NCBI GenBank assembly: GCA_013140485.1
Contig: JABFSS010000117.1
Coordinates: forward strand, 1 to 35,547
DNA from: Candidatus Peribacteraceae bacterium
GTDB taxonomy: Bacteria; Patescibacteriota; Gracilibacteria; Peribacterales; Peribacteraceae
Length of the DNA: 35,547 bases
Direction: 5' to 3'
In this document: piece by piece, positions 1,641 through 28,289 of the stretch
Layout: each line of letters starts with the position of its first letter
Numbering within the stretch: position 1 is the first letter of the stretch
Notes under the pieces: model-generated
Told to the model about the DNA's origin: nothing
The model's database searches: none
The model's input: only the letters and a program-made list of their open reading frames with translations
Translations under genes and position numbers: made by a program

Positions 1641-1714
1641 GAATGGAAAATTGAAAATGGAAAATTGCTAATTTCATTTTCCATTATCCATTTACAATTT
1701 TCAATCCTCAATTG
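1641..1714. repeat. 7-nt-word hairpin repeat between def and the dnaQ-like gene
   Basis: ATGGAAA|ATTGAAA|ATGGAAA|ATTG ... TTTCATT|TTCCATT|ATCCATT|TACAATT|TTCAATC|CTCAATT. Confidence 0.8.
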
Positions 1715-2320: not shown

Positions 2321-2390
2321 GGAAATGGTCAGATGGGCAAATGGTCCGGTGGTAGAATCATGAGCCCATCTGCCCATCCGACCACATGCC
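2321..2390. repeat. 8-nt-word hairpin repeat in the dnaQ-like/nth divergent spacer
   Basis: AAATGGTC|AGATGGGC|AAATGGTC|CGGTGG ... GCCCATCT|GCCCATCC|GACCACAT; 16/18 pairing between 2327-2344 and 2366-2383. Confidence 0.8.
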
Positions 2391-3290: not shown

Positions 3291-5108
3291 ATGATCTCTG
3301 TCTTTTTGACGCTCTTCGCGGCCGGCCTCGTCACGATCCTGCTGCCGTGCATCCTCCCGCTCATCCCGGTCGTTTTGGGCGTGAGCATCGTTGGGAAAAG
3401 CAGGCTGCGGCCGCTCGTGACGATTGGGGGAATGGTGATTTCGTTTGTCGCGTTCACATTCATCTTGCAGGTACTCCTGAGCAATTTCGTCACGTTCGCC
3501 GATGTGATCCAAACGTCGACGTATTACGTTCTTCTCCTCTTCGGCATCTGCTTCCTTACCAACAACAGACTCATCCAGCTTCTGGTTGCCGCGGTCGGCG
3601 GATTCTTCTACTGGAAGTTCGGTTGGGTCGTCATGACGGTTGCAGAAGTCGGCGGGTGGCTCGCGATTGAAATCGGCGGACGGGTGGCGTCAAAGATTCA
3701 ACAGCTCGGATCGGACGTGCAGCAGTCCGCGCGGTCGGGTCTGGGGTCCGATTCCCTCCTCACCGCCTTCATCGTCGGCCTCACGCTTGGTCTTGTATGG
3801 GTTCCCTGCGCGGGGCCCGCTCTGGGGTTCGCGCTCGCGCTGGTCCGCGAAGAACCCGGCGCGATGGCACTCGGAGCACTCGCAGCCTACGGACTCGGCG
3901 CGGCAGTTCCTCTCCTGATCGTTGCGTATGGAGGACAGTGGGCGGTGCACTCCGTCAGAGCCTTGAGTCAATACACGGGTCGCATCAAGCAGTTCGCCGG
4001 CGCCATTCTCATTATCACCGCGATCGGATTCCAGTACGGCTGGCTGATGACTTTTCAGGCATGGCTCACCGACGTGACGGGCTTTGGCAATCTTGGATCT
4101 CGGATCGAAGAGCAGTTATTTGCTACGAATGAAAATTCCTCTGTCGCCTCTGTTCCTTCTGTACTCTCCTCTATGACTTTGCCAAAACTTCCAAAAATCA
4201 CGAGAGCTCCGGAATTCACCGGCCTTGGTCCGTGGCATAACTCGCCGCCGTTTACACTCGCGTCGCTGAAAGGCAAAATCGTCCTCGTCGACTTCTGGAC
4301 GTACAGCTGCATCAACTGCATCCGGACGCTGCCGTATATGGAGGGATACTGGAATAAATTTAAAGACCAGCCATTTCTCCTCCTCGGCGTCCACACGCCT
4401 GAGTTCGTTTTTGAAAAGAGCGAGCGCAACGTCGCCGATGCCATCAAGCGCCACGGACTCACGTATCCCACGGCGCAGGATAACGACTTCGGAACGTGGA
4501 ATGCGTTCGCCAACCGCTACTGGCCGGCGAAATATTTGATCGATGCCGACGGCTACATTCGCTACACGCACTTCGGCGAGGGGGGATACGAAGAGACGGA
4601 TCTTGCGATCCAAAGTCTCCTCAAAGAAATCGGCGCGACGGCGAAAGGGCCGATGATCGGCGGGGATCAACAGCCGCAGGAGTACCGTGACCGTTCGCCG
4701 GAGACATACCTGGGCGAACGCAGTTGGCCTGCGTTCTTCAACAGCCTCGGCGATCCCGATGATGCAGTGCATACGTACACCGCGCCGTCTTCGCTTCCGC
4801 TCAATCGCTATGCCTTGGTCGGTGATTGGCAACTGAGCGGGGATGGAGAGCATCAGATTCTTCGCAGTAGCGAAGGGGAGATCCGGTATCAGGCGCTGGC
4901 TGCGGAAGTGAATCTGGTGCTGGGACTTGAAGAGGGAATCTCTTCCGTAAACGCAGACGTCTTTGTCGATGGCAAAAAAACGAAGAGCATCACCATCGTT
5001 CCGAATGATCTCTACAGTCTCTTCACGGGAGACTATGGCGAGCATGAGATTATCCTGAAGATTCATGGAAAGGGTGTGGCGGGATATGCGTATACGTTCG
5101 GGTCGTAA
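3291..5108 (+). CDS. DipZ-like fusion: CcdA/DsbD transmembrane domain + TlpA-like thioredoxin (CINC) + C-terminal domain
   Basis: Multi-TM N-terminus (GLVTILLPCILPLIPVVLG, LGLVWVPCAGPALG) followed by VDFWTYSCINCIRTLPYMEGYW thioredoxin motif and a C-terminal beta-rich region. Confidence 0.88.
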   Translation: MISVFLTLFAAGLVTILLPCILPLIPVVLGVSIVGKSRLRPLVTIGGMVISFVAFTFILQVLLSNFVTFADVIQTSTYYVLLLFGICFLTNNRLIQLLVAAVGGFFYWKFGWVVMTVAEVGGWLAIEIGGRVASKIQQLGSDVQQSARSGLGSDSLLTAFIVGLTLGLVWVPCAGPALGFALALVREEPGAMALGALAAYGLGAAVPLLIVAYGGQWAVHSVRALSQYTGRIKQFAGAILIITAIGFQYGWLMTFQAWLTDVTGFGNLGSRIEEQLFATNENSSVASVPSVLSSMTLPKLPKITRAPEFTGLGPWHNSPPFTLASLKGKIVLVDFWTYSCINCIRTLPYMEGYWNKFKDQPFLLLGVHTPEFVFEKSERNVADAIKRHGLTYPTAQDNDFGTWNAFANRYWPAKYLIDADGYIRYTHFGEGGYEETDLAIQSLLKEIGATAKGPMIGGDQQPQEYRDRSPETYLGERSWPAFFNSLGDPDDAVHTYTAPSSLPLNRYALVGDWQLSGDGEHQILRSSEGEIRYQALAAEVNLVLGLEEGISSVNADVFVDGKKTKSITIVPNDLYSLFTGDYGEHEIILKIHGKGVAGYAYTFGS

Positions 5109-8800: not shown

Positions 8801-10306
8801 TCAGACGTCGTAGTAGCGGAAGAATTCAGACGCCGTGGGTCTCTTCGACTCATCGGCTGCCTCGGCGCGCTTACCGGCGATGAAGTTGTCGATCAATGCC
8901 TGGCTGAAGACGCCGCCCTGGAGGAGGAATTCGTTATCCTGCTCGAGCGCGTCCAATGCTTCCGAGAGTGAGGCCGGAGCGCGCTTGATCTTGGCCAGTT
9001 GTTCGGGAGCCATGTCGTACAAGTTGCCGTCGGTGTGATCGCCCGGGAGCAAGCCTTTCGCGATGCCATCGAGTCCGGCGAGCATCAGCGCGGAGAAGGC
9101 GAGGTACGGGTTGCAGGCGGGGTCCGGCATGCGGAATTCGACACGCTTGGCCTTGGGGTTGTTGCTGTACATCGGGATGCGGATCGCGGCGCTACGGTTG
9201 CGGGCCGAGTAGATCAAGTTCACCGGGGCTTCGAAGCCCGGAACGAGACGCTTGTAGCTGTTGGTCGTCGGGTTGCAGATTGCGCAGAGAGCCTTGGCGT
9301 GGTGAATCAATCCCGCAATGTAGTGCAGCGCCATCTTGCTCAGTCCCGCATATTCTTCGCCGGCGAAGAGCGGCTTGCCCTGCTTCCACAAGCTCATGTG
9401 GACGTGCATCCCCGAACCGTTGTCGCCGAAGAGAGGCTTCGGCATGAAGGTCGCCGTTTTTCCATAGCGGTATGCGACGTTGCGGACGATGTACTTGTAG
9501 CGCATCAATTTATCCGCCATCACCAGCAGTTCATCACGCTCCATGTCGATCTCCGCCTGGCCGGCGGTGGCGACTTCGTGGTGGAAGGTTTCGATCTTGA
9601 TGCCGGCGCGCTCCATTTCGCGGACCATCGTCGAGCGGAGGTCCTGCTGCTGGTCCATCGGCGATGTCGGGAAGTAGCCTTCTTTGTGGCGGATCTTGTA
9701 GCCGAGGTTGCCCGCCATGCCGTCTTCTCCCTTGCCCGTGTTCCAGATGCCTTCGGTGGAATCAACGTCGTACATCGCGCCGTGGGCGCTCGTGTCGTAC
9801 TTCACGGAATCAAAAATGAAGAACTCCGCTTCCGGTCCGAAGTAGGCCATATCGGCGACGTTGCTGTTCTTCAAGTACTCCATCGCGCGCATCGCGACCG
9901 TGCGGGGGCTGCTGTCATACCACTCGCCCGTGATCGGATCCTTGACGTTGCAGAGGACTGAGAGCGTCTGTTCAGTCTTAAACGTGTCAAGAATGGCGGT
10001 TGTGGGATCGGGAACCAGCAACATGTCGGACTCCTGGATCATGCGGAAGCCGCGGATCGAACTTCCGTCGAAGCCCGCCGAGCCCTTCAGCACGTCTTCC
10101 ATCTCGTGGATCGGTTTGCTCGTGTGCTGGAGCGTGCCGGGAACGTCGACGAACGTGAGGTCGAGCACGGTGCATTCATGCTTCTTGGCGAACGCGATGG
10201 CGTCGTCGGCCGTCTTGATCTTCGGCGTGAACGACAGGTCGTCGCCCGCATGCGTGCGGGGGATCTTCATGAGTTCCTTTTCGAGTGCTCCGGCGACGGG
10301 ATTCAT
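8801..10306 (-). CDS. glnA: Glutamine synthetase type I
   Basis: VDVPGTLQHTSKP, GFDGSSIRGF, GPEAEFFIFD, NPTTNSYKRLVPGFEAPVN, RMPDPACNPYLAFSALMLAGLDGI. Start placed at ATG 10306. Confidence 0.96.
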   Translation of the reverse strand: MNPVAGALEKELMKIPRTHAGDDLSFTPKIKTADDAIAFAKKHECTVLDLTFVDVPGTLQHTSKPIHEMEDVLKGSAGFDGSSIRGFRMIQESDMLLVPDPTTAILDTFKTEQTLSVLCNVKDPITGEWYDSSPRTVAMRAMEYLKNSNVADMAYFGPEAEFFIFDSVKYDTSAHGAMYDVDSTEGIWNTGKGEDGMAGNLGYKIRHKEGYFPTSPMDQQQDLRSTMVREMERAGIKIETFHHEVATAGQAEIDMERDELLVMADKLMRYKYIVRNVAYRYGKTATFMPKPLFGDNGSGMHVHMSLWKQGKPLFAGEEYAGLSKMALHYIAGLIHHAKALCAICNPTTNSYKRLVPGFEAPVNLIYSARNRSAAIRIPMYSNNPKAKRVEFRMPDPACNPYLAFSALMLAGLDGIAKGLLPGDHTDGNLYDMAPEQLAKIKRAPASLSEALDALEQDNEFLLQGGVFSQALIDNFIAGKRAEAADESKRPTASEFFRYYDV

Positions 10307-11889: not shown

Positions 11890-12750
11890 ATGCGCGCATA
11901 TCTTCATTTACTTCAACATATCCTCGATCACGGCGTCAAAAAAGACGACCGCACGGGCGTGGGAACGCTCAGCACATTCGGCAACCAGATGCGGTTCAAT
12001 CTGCAGGAAGGTTTTCCTCTGCTAACCACAAAGAAGCTCTCGACCCGTTCGATCTTCCAGGAACTTCTCTGGTTTCTGAAAGGCGATACCAACGTGAAAT
12101 CTCTGCAGGCGGTGGGCGTGAGTATTTGGGACGAATGGGCGACGGCGGAGCAGTGCGCCAAATTCGGGCGGCAAGAAGGCGAACTGGGTCCGGTGTACGG
12201 GCATCAGTGGCGCAACTTCGGTGCGACGATGAAGCCGGATGGGACGTATGAGAAAAATGGCGTGGATCAGATCGCGCAGCTGATCGAAGGCATCAAGAAG
12301 AATCCCAATAGCCGTCGGCACATCGTCACCGGATGGAATCCGAAGGAGGCAGATCAAGTGGCACTGCCGCCCTGCCACACCTTGTTTCAGTTCTACGTGA
12401 CATCAGGGATCGCGGGCAGAATGCCCGCGCTAAGTTGCCAGCTCTATCAGCGCAGCGCCGATACATTCCTGGGCGTGCCGTTCAACATCGCCAGCTATGC
12501 CCTGCTCACGCACATGATTGCGCAAGTCTGCGGTCTCCAGGTCGGCGAGTTCGTCCACACGCTCGGCGATACGCATTTGTATCTGAATCATCTCGATCAA
12601 GCGAAGGAACAACTCAGCCGTGAGCCAAGGAAGATTCCACAATTGAAGCTGAATCCGGCGGTCAAAAACATCGATGACTTCAAGTATGAAGATATTGAGA
12701 TCATCGGATATGACGCCCATCCGAGTATAAAAGCGCCGATTGCGGTATAA
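11890..12750 (+). CDS. thyA: Thymidylate synthase
   Basis: [67 protein letters not shown]. Confidence 0.97.
12411..12429. repeat. Perfect palindrome inside thyA
   Basis: CGCGGGCA-GAA-TGCCCGCG. Confidence 0.85.
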
Positions 12751-12848
12751 ATCCTAAACTCTAACTTCAAAATCCTAAGCAAATCCTAATTCCTAACACC
12801 TTGTTTCTTGAAAATTGTTTAGGATTTAGGGTTTAGGGTTTAGGATTT
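12749..12848. repeat. 7-nt-word inverted repeat between thyA and folA
   Basis: AAATCCTAAAC...AATCCTAA...TCCTAA on the left, TTTAGGA|TTTAGGG|TTTAGGG|TTTAGGA|TTT on the right; 11-nt perfect complement AAATCCTAAAC/GTTTAGGATTT. Confidence 0.85.
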
Positions 12849-16175: not shown

Positions 16176-16250
16176 GAATCAAGAATAAAGAATCATGAAT
16201 CAAGAATGAAGTTTTTCATGACTCATGCTTCATGATTCGTTATTCAGCGT
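16173..16250. repeat. 7-nt-word hairpin repeat between folB and secD
   Basis: CATGAAT|CAAGAAT|AAAGAAT|CATGAAT|CAAGAAT ... TTTCATG|ACTCATG|CTTCATG|ATTCGTT|ATTC; 16/17 pairing between 16183-16199 and 16229-16245. Confidence 0.85.
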
Positions 16251-20473: not shown

Positions 20474-20560
20474 GTAAACGAAGAAAACAACGAAAACAAA
20501 GTAAACGAGGAAATCGTGCGAATTATACTCCTCGTTTCCTTCGTTTGCGTTGTTTGCCTC
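20474..20560. repeat. 9-nt-word hairpin repeat, same word family as 24288-24371
   Basis: GTAAACGAA|GAAAACAAC|GAAAACAAA|GTAAACGAG ... CCTCGTTTC|CTTCGTTTG|CGTTGTTTG|CCTC. Confidence 0.85.
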
Positions 20561-22873: not shown

Positions 22874-24295
22874 ATGTCAATACACACGGTAACCATCGAA
22901 AAGCTCACTTTTGGCGGTGCGGGATTGACGCATGTGGACGGTCTCGCCGTCTTCGTCCCCGACACCATTCCCGGACAGCAGGTGGAGATCGAGCTGACCA
23001 AACAGAAGGAGACGTTCGCGGAAGCAAAAGTCCTCAAGGTCATACGCCGCGCGAAGGACGAAATCCCGGCCCGCTGCTCGCACTTTCACGACTGCGGAGG
23101 ATGCATCTGGCAGAACCTCCCGTACGACAAACAGATCGCTTATAAGGAGGACATCGTTCGCGAAACGCTCAGCCACCTGACTCCCGTCGACGATGCCGTC
23201 CGCAAGCAACTCGTGGGCCGTGTCCTCAATATCGTTCCCAGCCCGCAGATCTATCACTATCGCAACAAGTTGGAGTTCAGTTTCGGTTATCAGGCAATGA
23301 GATCGGAGGAGCGCGCGGGGAAGCGATTGTACTTCGACGAAGGTCCCTCGGTCGGATTCCACCAGCCCGGCCAGTGGTCCACCATCCTGCCCATCACCGA
23401 ATGCCATCTGTACGACGAACAAGTCGGCGTCTTGCTGGCTGACGTGAAGCGTTTCATGGAACAGACGAAGCTGCCGGTCTTCAATCCCAAAACCAACCGC
23501 GGCATGCTCCGCAATCTGCTCCTGCGCCGCGGAGTCCACACAGGCGAGCAGATGATCTGCTTCCTGCTCCATGCGCGAAAGAAAGAACTCGAGCCGCTCT
23601 TCCAGCAGTTCCTGCGCGCGTTTGGCGGCCGCCCGCATCTCGCGTCACTCCTGATCGTCGAGCATATGGGCCTGCACGAGAAGCCCGAGTTCCCCAAAGT
23701 CCACACGCTCATCGGCAAACCCACCGTCACCGAGCGGCTGTTCGATCTCAGCTTTGAAATCTCCCCATTCTCCTTCTTCCAGACGAACACGCTCGCCGCA
23801 GAGAAACTCTATCAATGCATCGCACAGGCCGCGCAGCTCACGCAGCGCGACACCGTCCTCGACGCCTACTGCGGCATGGGCACGATCGGCCAGTACTTGG
23901 CGCGGTTCTGTTCCCGCGTCGTGGGTGTCGAGAGCCATCCTTCCGCGATCGATGATGCGCTCAAGAGCGCGGGTCGCAACCGGATCGGCAATATCAGCTT
24001 CTATAAAGGACGGACCGAACAGGTCCTCTTCGACCAGATGAAGCCCGGCGGCAAGTACCAGTTCACCACCATCATTCTCGATCCTCCGCGCGCCGGTCTC
24101 CATCCCAAAGCATGCGAAGCGGTCATCGCACACGCGCCCGAAAAGATTGTCTACGTCTCGTGCAACACGGCCACGTTTGCCCGCGACCTCGGCGCGTTCC
24201 TCAAGGCCGGCTACGATCTGCGAACGGTCCAGCCTGTCGATCTTTTTCCGCATACGGCGCATATTGAGACGGTGGCGTTACTTCAACGAAAGTAA
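22874..24295 (+). CDS. 23S rRNA (uracil-5-)-methyltransferase, RumA/RlmD type with TRAM domain
   Basis: TRAM-like N-terminus, CSHFHDCGGCIWQNLPYDKQIAYK Fe-S motif, VLDAYCGMGTIGQYLA, ILDPPRAGLHPK, IVYVSCNTATFARDL. Confidence 0.93.
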   Translation: MSIHTVTIEKLTFGGAGLTHVDGLAVFVPDTIPGQQVEIELTKQKETFAEAKVLKVIRRAKDEIPARCSHFHDCGGCIWQNLPYDKQIAYKEDIVRETLSHLTPVDDAVRKQLVGRVLNIVPSPQIYHYRNKLEFSFGYQAMRSEERAGKRLYFDEGPSVGFHQPGQWSTILPITECHLYDEQVGVLLADVKRFMEQTKLPVFNPKTNRGMLRNLLLRRGVHTGEQMICFLLHARKKELEPLFQQFLRAFGGRPHLASLLIVEHMGLHEKPEFPKVHTLIGKPTVTERLFDLSFEISPFSFFQTNTLAAEKLYQCIAQAAQLTQRDTVLDAYCGMGTIGQYLARFCSRVVGVESHPSAIDDALKSAGRNRIGNISFYKGRTEQVLFDQMKPGGKYQFTTIILDPPRAGLHPKACEAVIAHAPEKIVYVSCNTATFARDLGAFLKAGYDLRTVQPVDLFPHTAHIETVALLQRK

Positions 24296-24371
24296 ACGAA
24301 GGAAACGAAACAAACGACGTAAACAAGGATCCTCGTTTTCCTCGTTTACTTCGGTTGCCTCGTTTGCTTTC
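24288..24371. repeat. 9-nt-word hairpin repeat, about 41-bp imperfect arms
   Basis: Left arm GTAAACGAA|GGAAACGAA|ACAAACGAC|GTAAACAAG; right arm CCTCGTTTT|CCTCGTTTA|CTTCGGTTG|CCTCGTTTG; 32/41 complementary without gaps, 2-nt loop. Confidence 0.85.
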
Positions 24372-24379
24372 ATCTCTCT

Positions 24380-24844
24380 GTGCAGCACATCACCCTCCTC
24401 ACCGTCGGCCGAGTGAAATCTTCATGGATCAACGAGGGTTGTCAGGAATATCTCGACCGCCTCCGCCCCTCCGTCAAATTTACCATCACCGAAATCCCAC
24501 CCAGTCGTCAAAAGGATACGGAGAAGCAGCGGCAGGAGGAGAGCGAGCAGATTCTGCATGCTTTAGAGAAGCAGCGCGGTGACATCTTCCTCCTTGACGA
24601 AGCTGGAGAGCGAATGGCATCGAAGCAATTCAGTGTCTTCCTCAGCAAGGCCGAGGATATGGGCATTCCGCTCACATTCATCATCGGAGGCGCATACGGC
24701 GTCAGTGATCATGTGAGGAGCATTGTCCGGGGGTCTATCCGCTTGAGCGATATGACGCTCACGCACGAAATGAGCAGGTTGTTCTTCCTCGAGCAGCTCT
24801 ATCGGGCAATGGAGATCAAGAAGGGGGGCGGGTATCATCATTGA
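24380..24844 (+). CDS. rlmH: 23S rRNA pseudouridine1915 N3-methyltransferase
   Basis: LLTVGRVKSSWINEGCQEYLDRL, LLDEAGERMASKQFS, FIIGGAYGVSD, LSDMTLTHEMSRLFFLEQLYRAMEIKKGGGYHH. Confidence 0.96.
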   Translation: MQHITLLTVGRVKSSWINEGCQEYLDRLRPSVKFTITEIPPSRQKDTEKQRQEESEQILHALEKQRGDIFLLDEAGERMASKQFSVFLSKAEDMGIPLTFIIGGAYGVSDHVRSIVRGSIRLSDMTLTHEMSRLFFLEQLYRAMEIKKGGGYHH

Positions 24845-26604: not shown

Positions 26605-27333
26605 ATGAAGGAGTCACGGAATCGGCTTATTACTAATCTTATCATTGCAGGATGCCTCATGCTTTGGGCATTTTTTTTATGGACCTCTGGTTTGCTGCTC
26701 GGGTATTGGGCAGTGCCATTTGCTGTCGCATCTTTATTGCTCGCTCATTTTCCAGTGGAATGGAAACATTGGGTCTTTGTAGTAGTTACGGTTTTAATGA
26801 TAATCGGGATGTTTTTCTTCCCTCTTGAATACCTCTCGGATCCGCAATTGGGAACGCTTCATTGGACCTGTAGGAAGAGCATGGTCTTCTCTTTATATGA
26901 CAAAGAAAAAAGACAAGACTCCGATCATGATTCTTTCTCGGTCGATTGTGAGGAGCAAGAACAAGGTGACGACAATGATGCGACAAAAATCCCCAATCTT
27001 CCTAGCCTTGTGTACAACATTGCTCCCTCTTTTAACTCTCAATATATGAGGACATGCAAGATTGCTAAAGATGCGACCGCTTTTGAGTTTTATCACGCGG
27101 GATTGATCGCAAAGAGTGCTGAGTCATACCGCTTTACCATCCAAGGGGCTACTCTTGTTTGCCCAATCGGAGAGGATGACCGGAAGGATGCAAAAATGAG
27201 ATGCCCTTTTTCCCCCGACTTTCTTGAAGCTTTTAGCATGATCAAAGAACATTCTTTCTTTATGACTGTCTACGTGACAGTCGCAAACCAATCCGCGCCC
27301 GAAGAATTTCCCATGGACTGCGCAAAGCTATGA
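26605..27333 (+). CDS. Hypothetical membrane protein (island cargo)
   Basis: N-terminal hydrophobic segments, AT-richer than flanks; its stop overlaps the next ORF start. Confidence 0.6.
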   Translation: MKESRNRLITNLIIAGCLMLWAFFLWTSGLLLGYWAVPFAVASLLLAHFPVEWKHWVFVVVTVLMIIGMFFFPLEYLSDPQLGTLHWTCRKSMVFSLYDKEKRQDSDHDSFSVDCEEQEQGDDNDATKIPNLPSLVYNIAPSFNSQYMRTCKIAKDATAFEFYHAGLIAKSAESYRFTIQGATLVCPIGEDDRKDAKMRCPFSPDFLEAFSMIKEHSFFMTVYVTVANQSAPEEFPMDCAKL

Positions 27334-28289
27334 AGCGAAAACTACTCTTCAGTGGCATTACGATCATCATGCTCTGTATGATAGGTATCTTGTCAGTTCT
27401 TTTTTTGCACGATTTTGATGGTGACGATGTAAGCTATATCGGAGGTGATTGTCGTCCCTTCGAATCGAATATTTATCCTAATGCAGTAGAGAAAAGCTTC
27501 GATGGAACGGATCAGAATTGCGACGGCAAGGACTATATCGAAAGCGATACCTCGGATAATGACAACGACGGATTCACAAAACTCTCGGGAGACTGTGACG
27601 ATTTTGCTTTCACTGTACATATTGGTGCAGAGGAACTTATTGATGAGAAGGATAATGACTGTGACGGTAGGATTGACGAAAAGACAATGAGCCTTCCAAT
27701 AATTGCCTCACCCTTTGTTCCGAGTGTTGGCGCGAAGCAAGGACTTATCGGGGTGCAATTCCTTAGAGCTATGTCTGCAGTTACGATCAAAACTTCAGGT
27801 TTGCTCTACGATGGCTACCTTGATGTTACTGCTACAACAAAAAGTGCAATACCTCCTAACGATGGCTCAAAGACAGTGGCAGTCAAAATTTACTTGGGCA
27901 TCGGTACAAAGGATTTTTTCCATGTCCTGGATGAACGTTACTTGGATGCATCTTGGGCAGGAAAGGGCAACAACAGTCTTTTTGTGGGTACAGGTAATGA
28001 AAAGGGCAGCAATGCCCCTAACAATGATGATGCTCGAGAAAGAGGGGGAGTGTTTTTTGCTGGGCAGACGAGACATTTGCGACTTAACCTACGTTCGTTG
28101 CCTGTGAGTGCTAAATCTCAGTGGAATTCGACAAAAGAATCGCTGAATATCATTGATCTGCTCAGCAAATACAATGATCAACTCATTATCGGTCTATATA
28201 CGAGTGCGCCAGGCTTTGGAGTTATTAATTCTGCAACATTAGAGTTGGAGATGGAGAAAGACGCAGAGGCGGTACTGCAAAAATTGTAA
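27330..28289 (+). CDS. Membrane-anchored protein with MopE-like putative metal-binding motifs (island cargo)
   Basis: Repeats such as DNDNDGFTKLSGDCDDFAFTVHIGAEELIDEKDNDCDGRIDE match the MopE-type GDCDD...HPGAxE..DxxDNDCDGxxDE pattern. Confidence 0.7.
   Translation: MKRKLLFSGITIIMLCMIGILSVLFLHDFDGDDVSYIGGDCRPFESNIYPNAVEKSFDGTDQNCDGKDYIESDTSDNDNDGFTKLSGDCDDFAFTVHIGAEELIDEKDNDCDGRIDEKTMSLPIIASPFVPSVGAKQGLIGVQFLRAMSAVTIKTSGLLYDGYLDVTATTKSAIPPNDGSKTVAVKIYLGIGTKDFFHVLDERYLDASWAGKGNNSLFVGTGNEKGSNAPNNDDARERGGVFFAGQTRHLRLNLRSLPVSAKSQWNSTKESLNIIDLLSKYNDQLIIGLYTSAPGFGVINSATLELEMEKDAEAVLQKL

Follow-up and report, generated by a model that had tools for sequence, protein, structure and literature searches.

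Tandem-Word Fold-Back Elements at Gene Boundaries in Candidatus Peribacteria

The intergenic spacers of a Candidatus Peribacteria (CPR) genome contain a class of fold-back elements of defined architecture. Both arms are tandem arrays of short words, the outermost word can abut the stop codon of a neighboring gene to the nucleotide, and the word family that occupies a spacer in one species is replaced by a different family in a related species. As a tentative explanation, we favor high-turnover gene-boundary elements that may act as hairpins at RNA 3' ends. The starting point was the window, a stretch of 35,547 nucleotides (contig JABFSS010000117.1) from a metagenome-assembled genome (MAG) of 1.52 Mb in 130 contigs, below called G000. 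Relatives of the RlmD protein encoded in the window come from MAGs of Candidatus Peribacteria and Peregrinibacteria.

Word elements of the window

A fold-back element of approximately 80 bp (24290-24369) fills the spacer between the gene for an RlmD-type 23S rRNA (uracil-5-)-methyltransferase (22874..24295, plus strand; an ORF with Pfam matches to tRNA_U5-meth_tr, E 3.6e-22, and TRAM) and rlmH, encoding a SPOUT methyltransferase (24380..24844, plus strand, GTG start; Pfam SPOUT_MTase, E 9.5e-43). Its plan is AR-(GNAAACRAR)x4-GA/TC-(reverse complement)x4-YT. The outer end AA (24290..24291, plus strand) is followed by the left arm of four 9-nt words, GTAAACGAA, GGAAACGAA, ACAAACGAC, and GTAAACAAG (24292..24327, plus strand; consensus GNAA[A/T/C]C[G/A]A[R/N]), the palindromic center GATC (24328..24331, no strand), the right arm of reverse-complement words, CTCGTTTTC, CTCGTTTAC, TTCGGTTGC, and CTCGTTTGC (24332..24367, minus strand), and the outer end TT (24368..24369, minus strand).

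The word positions given for 24288-24371 in the first-pass annotation, made from the sequence alone, agree with this reading. The 32/41 pairing with a 2-nt loop reported there is the same structure as the arms obtained by repeat search (24288-24329 and 24330-24371), which are 42 nt each, 79% complementary, and have a loop of 0. The arms had also been described as four-unit tandem repeats; indeed, TRF assigns a period of 9 to both, and an unbiased scan reads exactly four words, GATC, and four words, with core mismatches at 1/40 sites. The TAA stop codon of the RlmD gene (24293-24295) is part of the first word, so that the element starts within the last codons of the upstream gene, as had been noted. 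The folding energy of the element as RNA is -30.1 kcal/mol (z -4.5) and the z-score of its DNA fold is -3.4, both better than all shuffles. In an Rfam search of the window at the gathering threshold only a tRNA was matched, and none of the families matched the element. The GTG start of rlmH is 12 nt past the last word (24368-24380) and has no visible Shine-Dalgarno sequence; its translation may need no leader, may be coupled across the folded hairpin, or may start in another way.

The same plan, which the annotation had claimed for further spacers, was recovered at 1643-1705, 12749-12848, 16183-16245, and 20476-20560, and weakly at 2326-2384, none of these elements being assigned a strand. The element at 20476..20560 is a second one with the 9-nt AAACGA word; its center is interrupted by about 17 nt, it begins at the stop of the minus-strand CoA_binding_3 gene, and the sister species G002 carries an AACCGA element at this position. 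Words of 7 nt form the elements at 1643..1705 (AATTGAA/ATGGAAA), 12749..12848 (TTTAGGA/TTTAGGG, beginning at a stop codon), and 16183..16245 (GAATCAT). The 8-nt element at 2326..2384 (GGTCAGAT/GGGCAAAT words) has a weaker inverted-repeat score of 14 and is near the limit of the class. In the right arm of the 12749-12848 element (12818-12848), TTTAGGG/TTTAGGA heptamers form an array resembling a telomere, here within a bacterial spacer. Elsewhere in the window, 27330-28289 encodes a protein with two MopE-type Cu-binding motifs.

Distribution, architecture, and turnover of the class

We read 1.10 of the 1.52 Mb of G000 (73%), plus 0.57 Mb of the same-genus G002. Genes were called for this analysis by means of a simple codon model, and each spacer received one score for tandem periodicity (5-12 nt) and another for inverted arms. 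With both the tandem and the inverted-repeat scores at 10 or more, 105 spacers were found in 1.10 Mb, compared to 0.33 in dinucleotide-preserving shuffles; with both scores at 12, the numbers are 74 and 0. This comparison with shuffled spacers had been proposed in the first-pass annotation, and the distinct repeat class suggested there, combining tandem words with inverted arms, stands far above the null. Nearly all periods are 9 (44 elements), 7 (41), or 8 (13). The elements fall into about a dozen word families, each at 2 to approximately 30 loci of G000. The word of the rlmH spacer had been considered locus-specific, but the same AAACGA-type 9-nt word recurs at about 30 genome loci, including 20476-20560, and is therefore family-specific.

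Around rlmD in 59 other Peribacteria genomes (667 kb), 60 elements were found versus 3 in a simulated set of equal size, which took in Bacteroidota loci as well. One Prevotella locus contains three elements by the same kind of scan, suggesting that the class extends beyond Peribacteria and CPR. These elements of the Prevotella MAG, at L117:6690-6772, 5006-5051, and 9212-9334, are inverted tandem arrays of CATTGACC, GACACAGAG, and AATCCGTG words. The same kind of scan detected no element in 50 kb of E. coli K-12, and blastn of the word arrays against plasmids gave no match. No account of tandem-word fold-backs turned up in a search of open papers, although this does not demonstrate their absence from the literature.

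The 9-nt family was scanned for four plus four words around any 4-nt center. This yielded 28 elements that deviate at 0-2 of their 40 core sites (15/1120 mismatches in total, or 1.3%) and none that deviates at 3-8, the background starting near 14. The center is GATC in 26 of these 28 exact elements, and four words per arm are present in 30 of 45 anchored 9-nt elements. Within a word, the near-invariant positions are 1, 3, 4, 6, and 8 and the semi-free ones 5 and 7; the letters at 2 and 9 are close to random. Position 1 is outside the detection rule of the positional profile, yet it is 99% G, so that conservation is not a detection artefact. The outer ends of 45 elements are A-R and Y-T, with A and then R at about 90% on either side, and conservation does not extend into the flank; sides that face a gene start carry the AR end too, which makes it intrinsic to the element.

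The GATC center provides an anchor independent of pairing, the expectation being taken from partners in other elements. With this anchor, the opposite letters of the two arms pair in 38/180 cases at position 2 (55.5 expected) and in 49 at position 9 (77.6 expected). Register 0 alone shows the depletion (z -3.1 and -5.0); once the register is moved by one to three words, z stays between -1.3 and 1.6. As pairing of variable sites is avoided only in the own register of the GATC-centered fold, the two arms probably meet in vivo as a fold-back, and either long perfect pairing is disfavored or interrupted pairing is favored; the pattern is hard to explain otherwise. The pairing statistics are solid only for the GATC-centered 9-nt family, the 7- and 8-nt registers having no independent anchor. 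A coupling estimate based on pairing-chosen registers was rejected as inflated by selection (0.59 for the 9-nt family versus about 0.24, or 87/360 at positions 2 and 9, with the anchor).

In codirectional spacers, the element edge lies at the upstream stop (median -1 nt), with a median of 36 nt between the element and the downstream start. The edge is at most 5 nt from the upstream stop in 73% of codirectional cases, compared to 32% under random placement. For exact 9-nt elements, the first word begins 0 or 1 nt past the stop codon at 21 of 41 gene 3' ends, and where it abuts the stop, the A of the stop codon is the terminal A of the element. Some elements finish 0-6 nt ahead of the next start codon. 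Strong inverted repeats of all kinds occur in 0.42 of convergent, 0.38 of codirectional, and 0.22 of divergent spacers.

About 20% of divergent spacers hold elements, and both neighbors are confirmed by Pfam in most cases. For instance, elements lie between the divergent pairs FtsH / PMT, PBP / T2SSE, T4SS pilin / Bax1-I, UDPG dehydrogenase / PfkB, CN hydrolase / DS, epimerase / GT2, and NUDIX / AhpC. Gene-calling error as the source of the divergent spacers is ruled out by the Pfam matches on both sides. A conserved TAATTATAGCAGAAA is found between divergent genes at L161:5627-5669 and L151:2963-3020; its reverse complement, TTTCTGCTATAATTA, is an extended -10-like promoter adjoining the element.

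Comparison of orthologous spacers, also proposed in the annotation, revealed replacement of one word by another between species. In 136 orthologous spacers of G000 and G002 (median protein identity 74%), the sister species underlying most of our between-species comparisons, elements are present in both genomes in 16 cases, in one in 30, and in none in 90 (odds ratio 6.4); when both spacers are at least 60 nt long, the odds ratio is 6.2 (p 0.0014). Many doubly occupied spacers contain unrelated words, such as TTAGTGA versus AGAATAAT, or AATTGAA, AAACGA, and GAATCAT, each versus AGCTTTTT. The spacer of the element at 24290-24369 has AAACGA in G000 and AACCGA in G002, and in other Peribacteria the RlmD-RlmH spacer shows the same plan with at least six other words, or the element is missing. 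The free letters of three out of four aligned orthologous 9-nt pairs are as different as those of random elements.

A second dispersed palindrome is GC-rich (CCTCGATACGCTCG...CTACTCGG...CCGAGTAG...CGTATCGAGG), with copies at L163:5681-5777, L148:9809-9905, L159:9323-9420, L165:18494-18591, and L028:1907-1999; CTACTCGG is the most over-represented 8-mer outside word elements. At L028:1863 and L033:1477, the counterpart of a word element of the sister species is a GC-rich CCTCG...CTACTCGG palindrome, consistent with a hairpin slot that both kinds can use.

Possible origin and function

We tentatively suggest that the transcript of the upstream gene would end in an interrupted hairpin and, the element being symmetric, that the transcript of an opposing gene would be served in the same way. 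The hairpin could label the 3' end of the RNA and shield it, or aid the release of RNA polymerase. Word cores and broken pairing would be kept by purifying selection, and the site would be refilled by whichever word family is active. For the element at 24290-24369, termination and 3'-end protection had already been listed as candidate roles, and both look plausible.

The RNA 3'-end role is the best single explanation given the stop-codon position, the lack of a detectable Rho, and the rarity of terminators. In a profile search of 15 relatives no Rho scored over the cut-off, the weak matches being most likely other RecA-fold ATPases, and strict terminators, a hairpin with a T-tract, occur at 10/246 gene ends here versus 5/21 in E. 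coli by the same rule. The arms are not followed by a U-tract (the T fraction of the adjoining 8 nt is 0.36 across 70 elements), and the 3' arms of the 8-nt families are A-rich. Elements also lie between Pfam-confirmed divergent genes, where no transcript ends, so that termination is not the whole story; these cases and the missing U-tract keep our confidence in the 3'-end role limited.

Rather unlikely, though possible, is that the elements are selfish or neutral dispersed palindromes (non-autonomous, REP- or MITE-like), spread by a putative enzyme, with gene ends as the sites of least harm. The families are indeed dispersed, and their loads are patchy and lineage-specific: AGCTTTTT occupies about 25 loci in G002, 6 in G000, 8 in G015, and almost none elsewhere. 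The fixed architecture with intrinsic AR ends on both sides in any gene context, the presence in convergent, codirectional, and divergent spacers, and the replacement of entire elements between species would all be expected of such palindromes. However, no two elements are recent copies: among 9-nt elements the best match at variable sites equals the shuffled maximum, with a mild excess of moderately similar pairs (at least 10/16 matches in 44 observed versus 26 expected). The signal of target-site duplication is absent, and the only Y1 transposase match in the genome is weak and unrelated to load. The contrast between 1.3% core mismatches and near-random variable sites requires selection or degenerate birth, and random insertion does not predict abutment to stop codons at single-nucleotide precision.

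It is doubtful that the arrays are sites for sequence-specific DNA- or RNA-binding proteins, acting at boundaries of transcription units or in chromosome organisation, with the hairpin as a by-product of inverted site order. The profile of five near-invariant, two semi-free, and two free sites is motif-like, the fixed word number would suit such a role, and so would the divergent spacers. Yet a dozen unrelated words of three periods would need as many factors, the rest of the genome shows no enrichment of the words, and the preference for mismatches in register reflects an interaction of the arms that would not be expected of binding sites alone.

Marginally less probable still is a dedicated template-directed activity that writes arrays anew exactly at stop codons, with an invariant core, programmed free positions, and four words per arm, overwriting an old array by another word in the same spacer. 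In-place replacement and the lack of similar copies would follow directly. The gap between 0-2 and 3-8 core mismatches is in line with this, as are variable sites without memory between paralogues or at three out of four orthologous 9-nt spacers, and the joint change of word class and variable letters at replaced sites. Against it, at L188:17159 both species have AACCGA and the left-arm variable letters are kept except for one inserted word (by eye), so that this element was inherited; the 7-nt AGTGAAA family has a slot-specific variant common to several loci, which looks like common descent; and G002 has a tail of decayed 9-nt elements. Moreover, reverse transcriptases were detected in only 5 of 20 relatives searched, although the class is nearly ubiquitous, and the enzyme was rejected as array writer since its presence does not correlate with the elements. 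A reverse transcriptase of G000 (RVT_1, E 4.7e-43) lies in a 447-aa frame at G000:C41:2297-2929 (L259).

Slippage and template switching commonly generate tandem words and inverted arms, but replication slippage with quasi-palindrome correction of local sequence, a possible source named in the first-pass annotation, is very improbable here, given the recurrence of the same words at tens of unrelated loci, the fixed 4+4 words with a GATC center and 40 near-invariant sites, the almost exclusive periods of 7, 8, and 9, the absence of decaying intermediates in this genome, and arms that are not copies of each other and are mismatched beyond chance at free sites.

If the elements do act at RNA 3' ends or gene boundaries, they would be a clue to how transcripts end in CPR bacteria with no detectable Rho and few canonical terminators. 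Whatever their function, the fixed word number, the near-invariant cores, the free letters that shun pairing in no other fold than the true one, the many word families per genome, and the swapping of words in one spacer make a puzzle, and the scan for tandem words with inverted arms is simple enough to be applied to all genomes.

Comparison with known systems

Similar to intrinsic (rho-independent) terminators, the elements form a hairpin directly past the stop codon, as seen from their positions and from the RNA fold of the 24290-24369 element. They differ in a stem of 70-110 nt that is regularly interrupted, in having no U-tract, and in their occurrence between divergent genes. The cyanobacteria are a lineage reported to lack Rho (PMC13289151), in which they resemble the Peribacteria without detectable Rho.

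REP, BIME, and REPIN sequences are short palindromes dispersed between genes in many copies, often at the 3' ends of genes (PMC3733652, PMC3116915). The elements described here share these features, but their arms are tandem words of 7-9 nt and many unrelated families coexist in one genome. The palindrome ends are A-R / Y-T rather than GTAG or CGTC tags, and a RAYT-driven origin is ruled out because the single RAYT (Y1_Tnp) match in G000 is weak and partial and its count is unrelated to element load. On present evidence the elements are not MITEs flanked by target-site duplications, as the best of 175 offsets has z 2.9, about chance for so many trials. Like the families of a systematic stem-loop survey (PMC2267715), they are intergenic and dispersed; tandem-word arms are not described in the text that was searched.

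DNA uptake sequences (DUS/USS) are words of 9-12 nt that form inverted pairs at gene ends and have species-specific dialects (PMC3630211). Short words, inverted order at gene ends, and differences between species are common to both systems, whereas 4+4 arrays and many dialects in one genome are peculiar to the present elements. A reading as uptake sequences is rejected, since the words are not over-represented outside elements (457 AAACGA observed versus 477 expected, most other family words being near expectation).

Finally, degenerate 7-nt tandem words in spacers are known from several lineages as cyanobacterial STRR and TAACTGA repeats (PMC4679880). The TAACTGA repeats of Beggiatoaceae and Cyanobacteria are direct, with one inverted case in 170 sets, and lie mostly just upstream of starts (PMC4679880). 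The element at 24290-24369, with period 9 and inverted arms, is not a heptanucleotide direct repeat of the STRR type, and unlike both these repeat types, the elements of this class are inverted, have periods of 7, 8, and 9, and are positioned at stop codons.
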